Below are positions 18,678 to 25,338 of a DNA stretch of 63,804 nucleotides, piece after piece. The notes beneath the pieces were generated by a model. It had not been told where the DNA came from. It did no database searches and worked only from the letters and a program-made list of their open reading frames with translations. The stretch is from Methylococcaceae bacterium (GTDB lineage: Bacteria > Pseudomonadota > Gammaproteobacteria > Methylococcales > Methylococcaceae). The stretch lies in contig CADDZF010000002.1 in assembly GCA_902812445.1 (NCBI GenBank), positions 1 to 63,804 on the forward strand. The letters are read 5' to 3'. Position numbers and translations under genes: made by a program. Position 1 is the first letter of the stretch; every line of letters begins with the position of its first letter.

Positions 18678-18908
18678 TTAGAGGCGATCGCGCGCCGTGT
18701 TGGCACTCCTCTGCGTCTCTGCAAAGAAGCGATCGACTTCCCGTTGAGCCTCTTCGCGTGATTTTCCATAACGCTCCTGGATAAGGCCTGCGAGCTTGTC
18801 TTGCTGTCCGTCAAGCTGATCCAATTCATCATCCGTGATCTTGCCCCACAGTTTCTTCATTTCGCCGCGGAACTGCTTCCATTGGCCTTTTGCGATGTCT
18901 TCGTTCAT
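18678..18908 (-). CDS. CsbD-family stress protein
   Basis: The 76-aa product matches the CsbD family: MNEDIAKGQWKQFRGEMKKL leads into WGKITDDELDQLDGQQDKL, then IQERYGKSREEAQREVDRF. CsbD-like proteins are small, soluble, charged and induced by general stress in many bacteria; their biochemical role is unknown. I chose the ATG at 18908 because GAGGAG lies eight bases before it. Upstream is a sigma-54 promoter (19012-19027) with two enhancer-like palindromes (19103-19139), giving a leader of about 93 nt. A hairpin follows the stop codon, so it is probably monocistronic. Confidence 0.9.
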   Translation of the reverse strand: MNEDIAKGQWKQFRGEMKKLWGKITDDELDQLDGQQDKLAGLIQERYGKSREEAQREVDRFFAETQRSANTARDRL

Positions 18909-19011
18909 GGTTAAACTCCTCTTGATGTCTCGCACAGTCATGTCTTAAATGCAGTGACTTCATTAAGCTAAAATTCACGCAGCTGCGCGACAGTAGCTTG
19001 TCCGGAAGTTA

Positions 19012-19027
19012 AGCAACCTCCACGCCA
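19012..19027 (-). promoter_or_regulatory. Sigma-54 promoter for csbD
   Basis: On the minus strand the sequence TGGCGTGGAGGTTGCT has the invariant GG and GC spaced by exactly 10 bases, as RpoN-RNA polymerase requires (consensus TGGCAC-N5-TTGCW). Transcription would start near 19001, about 93 nt before the csbD ATG. The element is almost identical to the one at 25204-25219. Confidence 0.78.
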
Positions 19028-19102: not shown

Positions 19103-19139
19103 CGGTAACTCTTACCGTTTTCGCTGTAAGCTTTACAGC
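19103..19139 (-). promoter_or_regulatory. Paired enhancer palindromes upstream of csbD
   Basis: Two sites of the form GTAA-N3-TTAC occur: CGGTAACTCTTACCG (19103-19117) and GCTGTAAGCTTTACAGC (19123-19139). Both are perfect palindromes. Their centres are 21 bp apart and lie 96 and 117 bp upstream of the -12 GC, the usual position for an NtrC-type activator. The same pair arrangement recurs at 20624 and 25306. Confidence 0.75.
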
Positions 19140-19323: not shown

Positions 19324-20397
19324 TTACAGCGGCAGGGACCAGCATACGCGAGTGCCCTTTTCCAGCTGCGGCTCCACTGCCATCGTACCGCCGTGCATTT
19401 CGGCCACCCGGCGGGCAAGATAGAGGCCCAGACTCGCAGCGTCCTTCGGAGCATTCAAGTAAAGCCGGTCAACTTCGTCGAGCAGTGCCTGCGAACTGGC
19501 CGGACCGTCATTCTGTAGCACGAAATGAGCCTTGCCGCTCATTTTGCCGAGCTCAGCATTCAGCTTCCCACCCTCGGGTATCGCCCGCAACGCCTGGATG
19601 ATGAGATTGAACACCGCCTGTTTGACCTGCTCCCGATTGCCTCTCACCTTAACGGCGCCATCGGGTTTGGCAAAATGCATCTGCACCTTTTGTAGCCGCA
19701 TCGGATATTCTAGCGCCTTGATAATCTCTTCGATCGTAGCGCCCAAATCAAAGTTCTCCATCACCGAAGGCAGTGGCATGGCCTGTTGGCGTAAGGACTG
19801 AACATAACGGTTGAAACGCTCGAGTTCACTTTTCAGGACGGTCACATAGCGACGTCTGTCGGCAAGCAACTCCTCCGCCTGCGTCAGCGTATCGTCATTC
19901 ACGCTGAGCTCGAGTAGCTCGAGCGTGATTTTCATCGCGTTCAGTGGGGCTACCAATCCATGGATCAAGCCGGCGGCGAGATAAGCCTGGGTACGCATGC
20001 GGCTGGCGACGAGCAGCTCGCTTTCCAGAGCGTCGATCGTTTGTCGGTCTCGCAGCAGGGCGAGATAACCCCCCTGTGACTCAGGGTCCAGCGTATGGAT
20101 TTCCAGCCCGAGCAAACGCCCTCCGTCCGGGTGCGGGATATCCAGCGCCAGGCGCGCCGGCCTGGTAGCCTTCAGCCGGTCTTCACCAGCCAAGCCTAGC
20201 GAGCGAATATAGCTTCGCCAGCAGCGCCGGGCCTCCTCTTCGCTCTTGCAACCCATGAGTCCTAAAGCGACGGTATTGGCAAATACCAGTTCGGCAGAGG
20301 AATCCAAAATCAATACGCCAGCGCCGATAATCTCGCTCAATGCAGTAATGCCCGGGCAACAGAGGCAATGGGTCGTCGCGATTTGTCTCATCAACAT
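19324..20397 (-). CDS. PAS-containing histidine kinase with an altered N-box
   Basis: The 357-aa protein has no membrane helix and is likely cytoplasmic. A PAS-like sensor occupies about 20-125 (ILDSSAELVFANTVALGLMG). A HisKA-like helix contains His146 in LIHGLVAPLNAMKITLELLE, and a HATPase_c domain covers about 220-357. The N-box reads NLIIQALRA: the second Asn that normally coordinates Mg-ATP is Gln268. The G1-like NDGPA and G2-like ASLGLYLARRVAEMHGG are partly kept. It may have weak kinase activity or act mainly as a phosphatase or sensor. It is divergent from the sRNA and receiver gene, and 1.3 kb from the sigma-54 activator gene it may regulate (inference). Confidence 0.8.
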   Translation of the reverse strand: MLMRQIATTHCLCCPGITALSEIIGAGVLILDSSAELVFANTVALGLMGCKSEEEARRCWRSYIRSLGLAGEDRLKATRPARLALDIPHPDGGRLLGLEIHTLDPESQGGYLALLRDRQTIDALESELLVASRMRTQAYLAAGLIHGLVAPLNAMKITLELLELSVNDDTLTQAEELLADRRRYVTVLKSELERFNRYVQSLRQQAMPLPSVMENFDLGATIEEIIKALEYPMRLQKVQMHFAKPDGAVKVRGNREQVKQAVFNLIIQALRAIPEGGKLNAELGKMSGKAHFVLQNDGPASSQALLDEVDRLYLNAPKDAASLGLYLARRVAEMHGGTMAVEPQLEKGTRVCWSLPL

Positions 20398-20623
20398 AGT
20401 CTCGAAGCAGCTGCAGTCCGATTATTATAAATAGCCAAAAAGCCACTGCTTATAGAGCTGTACGTTTCCTTGGTCTGAATTCGAGCCCATAGAGCCCTGT
20501 GCATTTTTACAACCTAAGGTGCTGGTTCGCATTTTCTGTTCCATCCCTAGATAGACAGCTAAGCAGCTGATTTTACGGTAATAATCAAGGTGGCGCTTTT
20601 CCCCTCTACCGTGTTGCCAAAAC

Positions 20624-20658
20624 GGTAAGCATTACAAACTGTTTGCAAGCTTTACAAA
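20624..20658 (+). promoter_or_regulatory. Paired enhancer palindromes upstream of the sRNA promoter
   Basis: GGTAAGCATTACA (20624-20636) fits GTAA-N3-TTAC. TTTGCAAGCTTTACAAA (20642-20658) is the same element with one mismatch (GCAA for GTAA). The centres are 20 bp apart and lie 127 and 107 bp upstream of the -12 GC of the sigma-54 promoter at 20743. The architecture equals that at csbD and the EF-hand operon. Confidence 0.7.
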
Positions 20659-20742: not shown

Positions 20743-20758
20743 TGGCATGAAAAGTGCT
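20743..20758 (+). promoter_or_regulatory. Sigma-54 promoter for a small RNA
   Basis: TGGCATGAAAAGTGCT has GG and GC with the required 10-base spacing and five of six -24 consensus bases; the -12 is GTGCT rather than TTGCT. The predicted start point is near 20769, only about 38 bases before a strong intrinsic terminator stem, so the main product would be a short non-coding RNA. Confidence 0.7.
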
Positions 20759-20768
20759 CATATACTTA

Positions 20769-20842
20769 ACAAAGTGGGTTCCCCCGGGCTCTGCTTCCTC
20801 CTGATGGTCACCTGCTCCATTAAGCGGCAGGTGACTTTTTTT
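20769..20842 (+). ncRNA. Predicted sigma-54-dependent small RNA with anti-Shine-Dalgarno motif
   Basis: A transcript from the sigma-54 promoter to the T-run would be about 74 nt. It contains a C-rich 5' region and the motif CUUCCUCCU (20794-20802), complementary to Shine-Dalgarno sequences. It ends in a terminator of nine perfect base pairs plus seven T. No credible peptide is encoded: an ATG at 20804 lacks a ribosome-binding site and reads through the terminator. The layout parallels Vibrio Qrr RNAs (LuxO) and Pseudomonas CrcZ (CbrB), which are also sigma-54-dependent sRNAs under NtrC-type activators. Targets are unknown. GGAGG- or GAGGAG-type sites precede DUF4398, csbD and the EF-hand gene nearby. 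Confidence 0.65.
20807..20842 (+). terminator. Intrinsic terminator of the small RNA
   Basis: The stem GTCACCTGC (20807-20815) and GCAGGTGAC (20827-20835), nine perfect pairs with an 11-nt loop, is followed directly by seven T (20836-20842). It is the clearest rho-independent terminator in the window, and no protein gene ends upstream of it on this strand. Confidence 0.88.
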
Positions 20843-21045
20843 ATGCGCTGGCGGCCCCCTGGATTAACGACAAAAAAGCTTTTTCACAGGCAGGGCTATT
20901 CGGTATTTTGCGATGCACGGGGGTAAGTGATGAAAATCGGGTTCGACCGAATCTTCATCTACTCAGCATGTCGTTGGCGCCGAATGGCAATAGCGGCAAC
21001 CCAGTGTGTTCGCGACAATGGCACTGGTATTTTTACCATGAGCAG

Positions 21046-21504
21046 ATGAAGACTCTAAAAATGGATGAGCAACCTGGTAAACTTCAAACGCAGACAGCGC
21101 CGCGCGGCATACGAAAGGAGACGCTCAAAGGCTTGCGGCTGCTCATCGTCGACGATGACGACAATACGCGCGAGATGCTGAGCGAAGTTTTGTGCTTATA
21201 CGGGGCCGACGTGAGGGCGGCTGACGGTGCGGCTAAAGCGTTAGCGATACTGCAGGCATGGCTCCCAGACGTCCTTGTGTCCGACATAGGCATGCCGGAC
21301 GAGGACGGCTACACCCTCGTTCGCAAAGTGCGCATGCTGCCGGCGACCCGTGGCGGTGAAACACCGGCGATTGCATTGACCGGTTATGCCGGGCCGGAAG
21401 ACCGCGCACACGCTTTATCGGCGGGTGTTCAGGTATTTGTCGCAAAACCCGTTGATCTGGATGAGCTGATAGACCGCATCCTGGAGCTCAGAAATTCTGC
21501 TTAG
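21046..21504 (+). CDS. Single-domain response regulator (receiver only)
   Basis: The product (152 aa from the ATG at 21046; an ATG at 21061 is also possible) has a short basic leader and then one CheY-like receiver. It shows LRLLIVDDDDNTREMLSEVL (acidic pocket), the phospho-acceptor Asp in LVSDIGMPDEDGY, the Thr in PAIALTGYAG and the Lys in VFVAKPVDLDEL. There is no output domain, so it may act as a phosphate shuttle or by protein contact. The gene lies about 200 bp downstream of the sRNA terminator, on the same strand. No clear ribosome-binding site settles the start. Read-through from the sigma-54 promoter is possible. Confidence 0.85.
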   Translation: MKTLKMDEQPGKLQTQTAPRGIRKETLKGLRLLIVDDDDNTREMLSEVLCLYGADVRAADGAAKALAILQAWLPDVLVSDIGMPDEDGYTLVRKVRMLPATRGGETPAIALTGYAGPEDRAHALSAGVQVFVAKPVDLDELIDRILELRNSA

Positions 21505-21715: not shown

Positions 21716-23086
21716 TTACTGCGCCTCGAATTCCCGCAGCCGGTTGTACAGCGTTTTCAAACTGATGCCGAGCATTTCGGCGGTTTTTTCCTTGCTGTTC
21801 TTGCAGTGCTCCAAGGTCGCCAGGATCAGCCTTTTTTCTGCATCGGCAATCTTAGTCCCGACCGATATACTGAGCGAAGTCCCGGCACTGGTCTTGATGA
21901 TTCCCAAGGACTGATGCGCCGCCGGCGCGTTCAGTAATTCATTCGGCAGGCAATCGCCGTCGATGATCTCGTCGGCCATAATCAGCGCCCGGTGGACGAC
22001 ATTCCTGAGTTCCCGCACATTGCCCGGCCAGTGATAGTCACGCAGCCTTTCCAGAGCCTCTGGCGCAAACGTCTTGGCGGTGGATTCAGCTTCATTCATC
22101 TCCTCGAGAAAATGCTTGGCCAGCAATTCAATGTCCTGGAGGCGCTCGCGCAGCGGCGGCATGTGAATGGGAAAAACCTGTAGCCGATACAGCAGGTCTT
22201 CGCGCAGTTTTTCTTCCGCCACCGCTTGTTCGGGATTGCGATTCGTCGCGGCGATGAGCCGCACATCGCTCTCCAATTGTTCGTCGGCGCCTACGCGCAT
22301 GAACGTGCCGGTCTCCAGCACGCGGAGCAATTTTCCCTGTAGCTCGATCGGCATCTCGGTGATTTCGTCTAGAAACAGCGTGCCGCCATGAGCGCGTTCG
22401 AAATAACCTTTGTGCCGGCGAGTCGCCCCGGTGAAACTGCCCTGCTCGTGGCCAAACATTTCGCTTTCGATCAACTGCGGTGAAATCGCGCTGCAGTTCA
22501 CCGCAAGGAAAGGCTGTTTCTTGCGCCGGCTTAGCTCGTGTACGGTCTGCGCAACCAGTTCCTTGCCGGTACCGCTCTCGCCGGTAATCAGGACGGTGGC
22601 TGCGGTAGGCGCTACGCGAGCGACCTGATCGTAGATTTTTTGCATTGCCGGCGAAACGCCGAGTAATCGGCCGAAGCGTCCGATGTTCCGAAGTTCTCCG
22701 CGGAGCTTATTGATCTCGGCCTTGAGATCGGGCACGCGTGTCACCCGGGACAAGATGGCCTTGAGCTGTTTCACGTTGATCGGCTTGATCAGGTAATCGG
22801 CGGCCCCCAGACGCAGTGCCTCGACCGACGTCTCCAGGCTGGCGTGGCCGGTAATCATGACGATTTCAGTATTGTTGCGGGATTCAAAATCCTGGAACAA
22901 GTCCATCCCGTTGCCGTCCGGCAGCACGATATCGAGCAGCACCACTTCCGGGCGCTGCATTGCCATTTGCTGGCGCGCTTCTTTCAGGCTGCCCGCCGTG
23001 CTGACGGTAAATCCTTCACGCTTGACCAATTCGGCCAAGCCACTCAACGAGTTGATGTCATCATCGACGATTAAGGTATGGGGCAT
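21716..23086 (-). CDS. NtrC-family sigma-54 enhancer-binding response regulator
   Basis: The 456-aa protein has the full NtrC layout. A receiver (about 1-115) carries the phospho-acceptor Asp52 in VVLLDIVLPDGNG and Lys101 in YLIKPINV. An AAA+ domain (about 140-375) has Walker A GESGTGKE (169-176), the sigma-54 contact loop GSFTGA (216-221; the usual form is GAFTGA) and Walker B GGTLFLDE (234-241). A Fis-type helix-turn-helix (about 420-454) has KTAEMLGISLKTLYNRLREF. It would bind paired palindromes as a dimer of dimers and drive RpoN promoters. It is the only such activator in the window and sits between the csbD, sRNA and EF-hand promoters, so it is the best candidate for the GTAA-N3-TTAC sites (inference). 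Confidence 0.93.
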   Translation of the reverse strand: MPHTLIVDDDINSLSGLAELVKREGFTVSTAGSLKEARQQMAMQRPEVVLLDIVLPDGNGMDLFQDFESRNNTEIVMITGHASLETSVEALRLGAADYLIKPINVKQLKAILSRVTRVPDLKAEINKLRGELRNIGRFGRLLGVSPAMQKIYDQVARVAPTAATVLITGESGTGKELVAQTVHELSRRKKQPFLAVNCSAISPQLIESEMFGHEQGSFTGATRRHKGYFERAHGGTLFLDEITEMPIELQGKLLRVLETGTFMRVGADEQLESDVRLIAATNRNPEQAVAEEKLREDLLYRLQVFPIHMPPLRERLQDIELLAKHFLEEMNEAESTAKTFAPEALERLRDYHWPGNVRELRNVVHRALIMADEIIDGDCLPNELLNAPAAHQSLGIIKTSAGTSLSISVGTKIADAEKRLILATLEHCKNSKEKTAEMLGISLKTLYNRLREFEAQ

Positions 23087-23487: not shown

Positions 23488-24276
23488 TTAGGTCGAACCT
23501 GCCGGGCGAGCCTGAGCGGAAATGATGATTTCTACCCGCCGGTTCTGCAGACGTCCAGCCTCGGTGCTATTGGTCGCTACCGGATTGGCTTCACCATAGC
23601 CGCGCGCGCTGATGCGGTCGGGGCCGATGCCATTTTGGAGCAGAAAATCCTGCACGGACTGCGCGCGCCGCTGGGACAAATCCAGGTTATATTCATCCGA
23701 GCCGGTACTATCGGTATAGCCCTCGATGGCCACGGTGCGTTCCGGGTTCTCCTTGAGAAAATTAACTAGCTGGTACAGATTCTGCTGGGCCCCGGGCTTG
23801 AGATTGGCCTTATTGTAATCGAACAGCACATCGCCCAAGGTGAGTACATAACCGCGCTCGGTCTTCTTGGTCTTGAGCTCGGCTAGTTCCCTTTCCAGCT
23901 GTTGGGCTTGGCGGGTGCGCGCTTGCAGCAGAATTTTATCGTGCTGCTCAAGCTGCTGTGCCGCCTGAGCTTCGGCCACTTTACGCTGGGCTTCCGCGCG
24001 CGCGATGGCGACCTGCTTCTCAGCGAGATAAGCATAATGGTTCACGTCTTCCTTATCACTGCCGCGTTCGGCTTTGCGCAAGGACTCCTCGGCCTCGTGC
24101 AGGGCGACCGAGGCATGCGTGGCGACTTGGGGGTCTCCCGTCGCCTGCGTATAGACTTGTTGAGCATGCTGCAAGGCCAAGTTGGGACCGGCGCAACCCG
24201 TGCACAATGTGACGATACCCAGCGCCAGACTGCACGTGACCAAACGGAGAGAGCGGTCGGTGTGTAGGCTTAACAT
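23488..24276 (-). CDS. OmpA-family lipoprotein with DUF4398 region
   Basis: The lipoprotein signal ends LCTGC near residue 28. A helical DUF4398-like region (about 35-140) is rich in Ala, Glu and Gln and likely coiled-coil. The C-terminal OmpA/MotB peptidoglycan-binding domain (about 155-255) shows LGDVLFDYNKANLKPGAQ, VAIEGYTDSTGSDEYNLDLS and NRRVEIII. It should sit in the outer membrane and hold peptidoglycan. AGGAG is two bases from the ATG at 24282 but eight from the ATG at 24276, so the latter is preferred. It is the last gene of the sigma-54 operon EF-hand / DUF4398 / OmpA. Confidence 0.92.
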   Translation of the reverse strand: MLSLHTDRSLRLVTCSLALGIVTLCTGCAGPNLALQHAQQVYTQATGDPQVATHASVALHEAEESLRKAERGSDKEDVNHYAYLAEKQVAIARAEAQRKVAEAQAAQQLEQHDKILLQARTRQAQQLERELAELKTKKTERGYVLTLGDVLFDYNKANLKPGAQQNLYQLVNFLKENPERTVAIEGYTDSTGSDEYNLDLSQRRAQSVQDFLLQNGIGPDRISARGYGEANPVATNSTEAGRLQNRRVEIIISAQARPAGST

Positions 24277-24296
24277 GGTCATGTCTCCTGTTCGAA

Positions 24297-24683
24297 TTAG
24301 TCCCCGGGTGCTTTCGGAGCCGCCTCTTGGCGCAGCGTATCGATCGTCTCTCGTGTTTCCTCGGAACTCTTTTGCGCGGCCTCGGCAAGCGCTTTCGCTT
24401 CCGCCAGCCGGGCGTCCACGCGAGCTTGCTCGGCCAACCGGCGGGCTTTTTCGTAGTCGTCGTCGTGCATGGCCGATTTCGCCTTGTCCAGCTTTTCTTG
24501 CGCTACCCGTAATTCCAAGGGCGCATACTCGGACGCCTTGGCATCCATGGCTCGGTTGTAGGCCATTTGCGCCGTTGATAGGGCATCGGTCGGCGGATTG
24601 CCGGCGCAGGCACAGAATGCGCCCGTTATGCTGATAAGCACCGGCAAACCGGCACGCCGTCTGCGTAACGGAATTTCGTTCAT
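24297..24683 (-). CDS. DUF4398 helical lipoprotein-like protein
   Basis: The product is 128 aa from the ATG at 24683, chosen because GGAGG lies about seven bases before it. A hydrophobic export segment (LPVLISITGAFCAC) ends at a candidate acylated cysteine with an imperfect lipobox. A long alpha-helical DUF4398 domain follows, with STAQMAYNRAMDAKASEYAP, LELRVAQEKLDKAKSAM and YEKARRLAEQARVDARLAEA. The same kind of helix occurs in the OmpA-lipoprotein encoded 14 bp downstream, so the two may associate. It is the middle gene of the sigma-54 operon starting at 25139. Confidence 0.85.
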   Translation of the reverse strand: MNEIPLRRRRAGLPVLISITGAFCACAGNPPTDALSTAQMAYNRAMDAKASEYAPLELRVAQEKLDKAKSAMHDDDYEKARRLAEQARVDARLAEAKALAEAAQKSSEETRETIDTLRQEAAPKAPGD

Positions 24684-24782
24684 GGCTCTTACCTCCATTG
24701 CTTCGAGGAGCGTCGCTGCCACCTCGTAATCCCGCTGAGCTTAGTGGCAGGGCCTGTCCGCAAACAGACCCCGAGCGATTAT

Positions 24783-25139
24783 TTACGGTGTCGTCGCAGA
24801 ACCTCCCGCATCCTCCCGCTTTTCCTGCATGAACAGGTTGCCGTATTCGTGGGCTTCCAGCTTGCCGTCTTTGCCGGCGTCTACCTTGTCGAAGTTCTCC
24901 AACAGTTTCGGATAATCTTTCAATTCGTCCTTGGTGATGTAGTGATCGCCGTTCTTATCCACTTGTTCGAACATGGGCAGCTCTTTGCTACCCCCGCCTG
25001 CACTGCCCGCCTGCTGGCTCGGATTGATTTTCTCGGGTTCAGCGCTGTGAACAGCCATGGAACTCAACATGCAAACCATGCCAGCGCTCAATGCTACAGG
25101 CAGCCAAGCTTTCCCGATCGTTATGTTTAAAGCTTTCAT
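24783..25139 (-). CDS. Exported EF-hand protein
   Basis: The 118-aa protein has a signal peptide (about 1-33, ending SMAVHSA) and two EF-hand loops. The first, at 61-72, has ligands Asp61, Asn63, Asp65, Tyr67 and Glu72. The second, at 87-98, has Asp87, Gly89, Asp91, Lys93 and Glu98. The first is canonical, and the second lacks one usual side-chain ligand. It is probably a periplasmic calcium-binding protein. GAGGAG lies before the ATG. Upstream are a sigma-54 promoter (25204-25219) and paired enhancers (25306-25338), making this the first gene of an operon with the DUF4398 and OmpA lipoproteins. Confidence 0.9.
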   Translation of the reverse strand: MKALNITIGKAWLPVALSAGMVCMLSSMAVHSAEPEKINPSQQAGSAGGGSKELPMFEQVDKNGDHYITKDELKDYPKLLENFDKVDAGKDGKLEAHEYGNLFMQEKREDAGGSATTP

Positions 25140-25203: not shown

Positions 25204-25219
25204 AGCAACCTCCATGCCA
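25204..25219 (-). promoter_or_regulatory. Sigma-54 promoter for the EF-hand / DUF4398 / OmpA operon
   Basis: On the minus strand TGGCATGGAGGTTGCT matches the RpoN consensus with GG-N10-GC spacing. It differs from the csbD promoter at one base. Transcription would begin near 25194, about 55 nt before the EF-hand gene's ATG. Confidence 0.82.
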
Positions 25220-25305: not shown

Positions 25306-25338
25306 GGTAACAATTACCATTAGGATGTAACCCTTACA
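25306..25338 (-). promoter_or_regulatory. Paired enhancer palindromes upstream of the EF-hand operon
   Basis: GGTAACAATTACC (25306-25318) and TGTAACCCTTACA (25326-25338) are perfect GTAA-N3-TTAC palindromes with centres 20 bp apart. They lie 106 and 126 bp upstream of the -12 GC at 25205. They also lie about 85-115 bp from the purE start on the other strand, but purE shows no sigma-54 element. Confidence 0.78.

Follow-up and report, generated by a model that had tools for sequence, protein, structure and literature searches.

The region between a sensor-kinase gene and a stand-alone receiver gene of this Methylococcaceae bacterium raises the question of whether it holds the gene of a small RNA and, if so, which regulator would switch it on and what the RNA would act upon. 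In a preliminary description it was read as a sigma-54-dependent small RNA with an anti-Shine-Dalgarno core. Here, we followed up this reading in the whole analysed stretch of 63,804 nucleotides (63.8 kb, hereafter the window), in the remaining genome and in relatives.

Results

A predicted transcription unit between the kinase and the receiver gene

The features of the locus are summarized in Table 1. The promoter TGGCATGAAAAGTGCT can be read directly, with the GG and the GC placed 10 bases apart, and it matches the preliminary description base for base. Taking the GC as -13/-12, the inferred +1 is the A at 20769, where the start had been expected. On the weight matrix the site scored 21.0 of 22.9 and was among the three best of the window.

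Table 1. Coordinates of the predicted small RNA, its control elements and its neighbours.
Feature	Position	Strand	Basis or remark
Predicted 74-nt small RNA	20769..20842	+	TSS from -12 element, 3' end from terminator
Sigma-54 (-24/-12) promoter of RNA, TGGCATG-AAAA-GTGCT (TGGCATGAAAAGTGCT)	20743..20758	+	sequence, weight matrix
Enhancer (UAS) site 1 of RNA, GTAAGCATTAC	20625..20635	+	-118 from promoter start
Enhancer (UAS) site 2 of RNA, GCAAGCTTTAC	20645..20655	+	-98; one mismatch to GTAA-N3-TTAC
5' hairpin of RNA, weak	20772..20796	+	folding, ~ -7 kcal/mol
Anti-Shine-Dalgarno stretch CUUCCUCCU (CTTCCTCCT)	20794..20802	+	sequence, unpaired probability
Intrinsic terminator, perfect 9-bp stem, 11-nt loop, T7	20807..20842	+	sequence, shuffles
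Sigma-54 promoter of CsbD gene (18678-18941)	19012..19027	-	UAS 19105-19115 and 19126-19136, at -109/-88
Sigma-54 promoter of EF-hand/DUF4398/OmpA operon (23488-25139)	25204..25219	-	UAS 25307-25317 and 25327-25337, at -118/-98
Possible weaker sigma-54 promoter of kinase gene, TGGAACAGAAAATGCG	20528..20543	-	UAS pair of RNA at -112/-92
Histidine-kinase-like protein, divergent from RNA	19324..20397	-	profile match
Stand-alone receiver-domain protein, downstream of RNA (start codon uncertain)	21049..21504	+	profile match
NtrC-family sigma-54-activating response regulator, probable activator of RNA	21716..23086	-	Pfam; orthologue neighbourhoods

At the other end of the unit, the hairpin GTCACCTGC-TCCATTAAGCG-GCAGGTGAC (20807-20835) is followed by seven T (20836-20842), with a strength of about -16.5 kcal/mol. 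This terminator is as described earlier and moreover unique. When both strands of the window were scanned for perfect stems of 8 bp or more with T6 behind them, it was the only match; 30 Markov-shuffled windows gave none, and of 2000 shuffles of the local intergenic sequence a single one produced such a structure. A standard terminator scan, limited to loops of 8, had passed over it, as its loop is 11 nt long. Downstream of the terminator and ahead of the receiver gene there is also an inverted repeat (GATGAA..TCGG..CCGA..TTCATC, 20923-20965) without a T run.

The only same-strand open reading frame across the RNA has its ATG at 20747, ahead of the inferred start of transcription, and extends past the terminator as far as 20926. 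Two start codons within it, GTG 20774 and ATG 20804, are not preceded by a Shine-Dalgarno sequence and meet no stop inside the RNA, and no frame both opens and closes within the 74 nucleotides, which agrees with the earlier view of an RNA of about 74 nt without a plausible peptide. The -24/-12 promoter with upstream activator sites and the intrinsic terminator without a closed frame place the unit among the sigma-54-dependent intergenic small RNAs, which are a kind and not a sequence family. Taken together, these elements make a convincing case for a complete transcription unit predicted to yield a 74-letter non-coding RNA.

Tandem enhancers shared with neighbouring operons

Five exact copies of GTAA-N3-TTAC are present in the 63.8 kb, where 0.2 would be expected, and all of them lie at three sigma-54 promoters, namely those of the RNA, the CsbD gene and the EF-hand/DUF4398/OmpA operon. 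When up to one mismatch was allowed, 15 sites were found in the window, and tandem pairs 18-23 bp apart occurred only at the same three promoters. These tandem enhancers, common to the RNA and two neighbouring sigma-54 operons, lend further weight to a sigma-54-dependent small RNA, as does the genome-wide promoter set described below. The enhancer pair of the RNA may serve both the RNA and the divergent kinase gene, since the kinase-facing element sees these sites at -112/-92. By eye, the kinase appears degenerate, with an N-box reading NLIIQA in place of N-x3-NA and a G2 box lacking the first glycine (SLGL). As an anchor for comparison it gave no close homologue among the genomes searched.

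A sigma-54 regulon and its probable regulator

The pattern UAS-N80-110-TGGCN8TGC had nine matches in the genome and none in the reversed control. Across 150 other genomes of the order it was found 0 to 4 times per genome, and in the wider class no genomes stood out except two members of one other family (G081 with five and G226 with three). Outside the window, about eight further promoters of this type, with tandem GTAA-N3-TTAC approximately 90-120 bp upstream of -24/-12 elements, stand ahead of stress and envelope genes (contigs C8, C9, C15, C23, C85, C117 and C135). The genes, identified from their translated N-termini, comprise two DUF883/ElaB-like genes, a glycosyltransferase, a PRC-barrel-like, a nuoA-like and a zinc alcohol dehydrogenase gene as well as small exported proteins; at such promoters in G081 and G226 we found BON-like, RlpA-like, DUF2383-like and DUF1328-like genes. 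Biologically, the gene set downstream of the other sites makes sense. Genes of the CsbD, ElaB/DUF883 and OmpA types are usually under RpoS-like control, and our literature search found no paper describing a sigma-54 stress/envelope regulon with GTAA-N3-TTAC enhancers. Among the units examined in the genome, the RNA is the only one without a protein-coding gene before its terminator.

The NtrC-family regulator encoded near the RNA is 60-71% identical to orthologues in G226, the closest at 71%, and in Burkholderiales, and the motif KTLYNRL near its C-terminus is invariant in the five proteins aligned. Beside the Burkholderiales orthologues, the same enhancers and sigma-54 promoters lie ahead of OmpA/BON-type lipoprotein, DUF883-type and rpoN-like genes. 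In G226, no strong sigma-54 site adjoining the orthologue was found among the upstream genes checked. Because its orthologues adjoin the same combination of enhancers and promoters, there is strong reason to assume that the regulator binds the GTAA-N3-TTAC sites. With the enhancer code shared within the window, across the genome and beside the orthologues of the regulator, the RNA very probably represents the non-coding arm of the sigma-54 regulon of this adjacent regulator. In two Burkholderiales loci (L037, 4701, minus strand; L043, 4966, minus strand) an enhancer and a sigma-54 promoter precede the rpoN-like gene near the regulator orthologue, an arrangement that suggests a sigma-54 gene activating its own transcription. 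The genome studied here has one rpoN and one hfq (Hfq, 103 bits), and both the hfq gene and a U-tail of at least seven (T7), as in Hfq-dependent small RNAs, are present.

Exposed core and candidate targets

The RNA is predicted to fold into a weak 5' hairpin, a linker and the terminator, mildly better than shuffled sequences (z -1.8). The anti-Shine-Dalgarno stretch that had been noticed ahead of the terminator hairpin is indeed present as CTTCCTCCT, and its core is predicted to be single-stranded: CCUCCU (20797-20802) is 0.97-0.99 unpaired and lies between the two hairpins, a placement in an unpaired region as in anti-Shine-Dalgarno RNAs of the alpha-r14/alpha-r15 type. In this folding model the placement is suggestive. 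By chance, an anti-Shine-Dalgarno hexamer occurs in 2% of 74-mers with the composition of the window and in 9% of those with small-RNA composition. Because the hexamer alone is common by chance, the strength of the case lies in the promoter, the enhancers and the terminator jointly and not in the hexamer.

Target prediction, which had been proposed as a check, was applied to start sites of the window. Within the window, the middle of the RNA outperformed shuffles on the median at start sites (2% of shuffles), as any anti-Shine-Dalgarno would; these predictions are weak and include a hairpin arm, and no start site in the window emerged as a strong specific target. The best candidate was the start site of the co-regulated EF-hand operon, where UGCUUC-CUCCU would pair with AGGAG-U-GAAGCA across the Shine-Dalgarno sequence and the AUG. 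The predicted duplex reaches -16 to -18 kcal/mol, not counting opening costs of some 3.7 + 8.0. As about 1% of shuffled queries equalled this pairing and six start sites were examined, the operon is a modest candidate target and serves as a lead only.

Search for homologues

A DNA search of about 520 relatives (family, order, class sample and family f36) revealed no homologue of the RNA, and neither plasmid nor viral collections contained a match; in its own genome it is single-copy. Conservation of the promoter and terminator in relatives, which had been named as a test, was accordingly not seen, and support from conservation or covariation is absent. The search is a weak test because the set contained no genome of the same genus and a comparable regulon is missing from the rest of the order. 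The one weak match in the class sample (G186, 24 nt, E 0.005) was rejected as probably lying inside a gene, since open reading frames of some 300 codons cover that site. Around the Burkholderiales orthologues of the regulator, a combined promoter and terminator search found no comparable RNA; candidate hairpins were seen at L046 and L048. A candidate leader in Pigmentiphaga (L043, 7176) was discarded, as it leads to a DUF883-type gene.

Discussion

The promoter, the enhancers, the terminator, the shared regulon code, the exposed core and the presence of hfq and rpoN can be read or computed from the DNA. From these we infer the identity of the binding regulator, the production of the RNA and its association with Hfq, as well as repression through base pairing and the choice of targets. 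We favour, as probable with some reserve, a free-standing gene for a trans-acting small RNA of about 74 nt that is driven by the regulator and sigma-54 and acts with Hfq as an anti-Shine-Dalgarno repressor. The activated regulator would bind the pair of GTAA-N3-TTAC sites some 100 bp upstream and drive RNA polymerase-sigma-54 from the -24/-12 element, and transcription would end at the hairpin and U7. As its non-coding arm, the product would belong to an envelope/stress regulon under sigma-54 that also comprises CsbD, DUF883/ElaB, OmpA lipoprotein, EF-hand, PRC-barrel and further genes. Its exposed CCUCCU linker, perhaps together with the flanking UGCUU, would pair with the ribosome-binding sites of selected mRNAs and repress their translation, with Hfq bound to the U7 tail. 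Trans-acting repression of this kind appears to be the likeliest mode of the RNA.

Alternatively, the unit might serve the receiver gene at 21049 as an attenuated leader, in which the sigma-54 promoter drives the receiver through a conditional or read-through terminator and the short RNA is mostly a by-product. The receiver gene follows on the same strand at a distance of about 200 nt, and a simple scan detected no sigma-70-type promoter between 20000 and 21843. However, the terminator is perfect and strong, no anti-terminator, leader frame or Rfam riboswitch was seen, and the exposed linker would have no role, so that we regard a leader as unlikely. Somewhat less likely still is a real sigma-54 small RNA that, in the manner of CrcZ and Crc/Hfq, titrates a protein or another RNA instead of blocking ribosome-binding sites. 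CrcZ is controlled by CbrB and sigma-54 and sequesters Crc (PMC7602753). C/U-rich single-stranded stretches are predicted in the RNA studied here. CrcZ, however, is far longer and has several CA-motifs, whereas our RNA has one C/U-rich linker only, and it also lacks a GGA motif for CsrA. That promoter, enhancers and terminator coincide by chance or are decayed would fit the lack of homologues in relatives, but is very improbable given a joint occurrence far beyond shuffled expectation. An mRNA of a small protein read from GTG 20774 or ATG 20804 is the most improbable reading, for although the frame stays open across the RNA, it reaches the terminator without a stop and lacks a Shine-Dalgarno sequence, and ATG 20747 is upstream of the inferred start.

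The preferred reading, a trans-acting repressor, can be compared with known small RNAs. In Rfam, no match was found at the gathering cut-off or at E<=5 except two chance matches to snoRNAs at E ~1, which bears out the earlier impression that the RNA resembles neither Qrr nor CrcZ. The Qrr RNAs of Vibrio, controlled by LuxO and sigma-54, are likewise intergenic small RNAs with a sigma-54 promoter, activation by an NtrC-family response regulator and an intrinsic terminator. The Qrr covariance model, however, did not match, leaving no kinship in sequence or structure, and whereas Qrr belongs to quorum sensing, the RNA described here is single-copy and neighbours an envelope/stress regulon. Similar non-coding arms of sigma-54 response-regulator circuits have been described with CrcZ (CbrB), NrsZ (NtrC), GlmY/GlmZ (GlrR) and GlnZ (NtrC regulon) (PMC7602753; PMC9731577). 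From all of these our RNA differs in its enhancer motif, its regulon and the lack of an Rfam match, including to the CrcZ and GlmY/GlmZ models; the several CA-motifs of CrcZ are absent, and GlnZ is a 3'UTR product, unlike the free-standing gene found here. With regard to the pairing motif, AbcR1/2 and NfeR1 of rhizobia (alpha-r15 and alpha-r14) carry the unpaired anti-Shine-Dalgarno motifs CUCCUCCC and CCUCCUCCC, which block ribosome-binding sites (PMC8844928; PMC10746234). Our RNA shares a short motif of this type in an unpaired region, but its core is a single CUUCCUCCU of different sequence between two hairpins, and no Rfam match points to kinship in sequence or structure. Moreover, transcription of AbcR1 and AbcR2 depends on LsrB/RpoH1 and the NfeR1 promoter has no sigma-54 signature. 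In the way it would be switched on, the RNA is thus most like Qrr, NrsZ or GlmY, and its probable pairing motif is like that of AbcR1/2 or NfeR1. It is a member of no Qrr, CrcZ, GlmY/Z or Rfam family.

A more far-reaching and, as a whole, doubtful reading would join these observations. In a GTAA-N3-TTAC sigma-54 stress regulon present here and in Burkholderiales, one enhancer pair would drive both the kinase gene and the divergent anti-Shine-Dalgarno RNA, which would dampen translation of the EF-hand/OmpA operon of its own regulon and thereby form an incoherent feed-forward loop.

Few sigma-54 small RNAs are well characterised, and these come mostly from Vibrio, Pseudomonas and Enterobacteriaceae. 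On the evidence of its sequence, the predicted RNA convincingly adds a new case to an already known type of bacterial regulator. Because the shared enhancers tie it to a defined set of protein genes, the regulator, the regulon and the RNA can be tested together. The analysis also brings out a sigma-54-controlled stress/envelope regulon with genes of the CsbD, ElaB/DUF883 and OmpA types.
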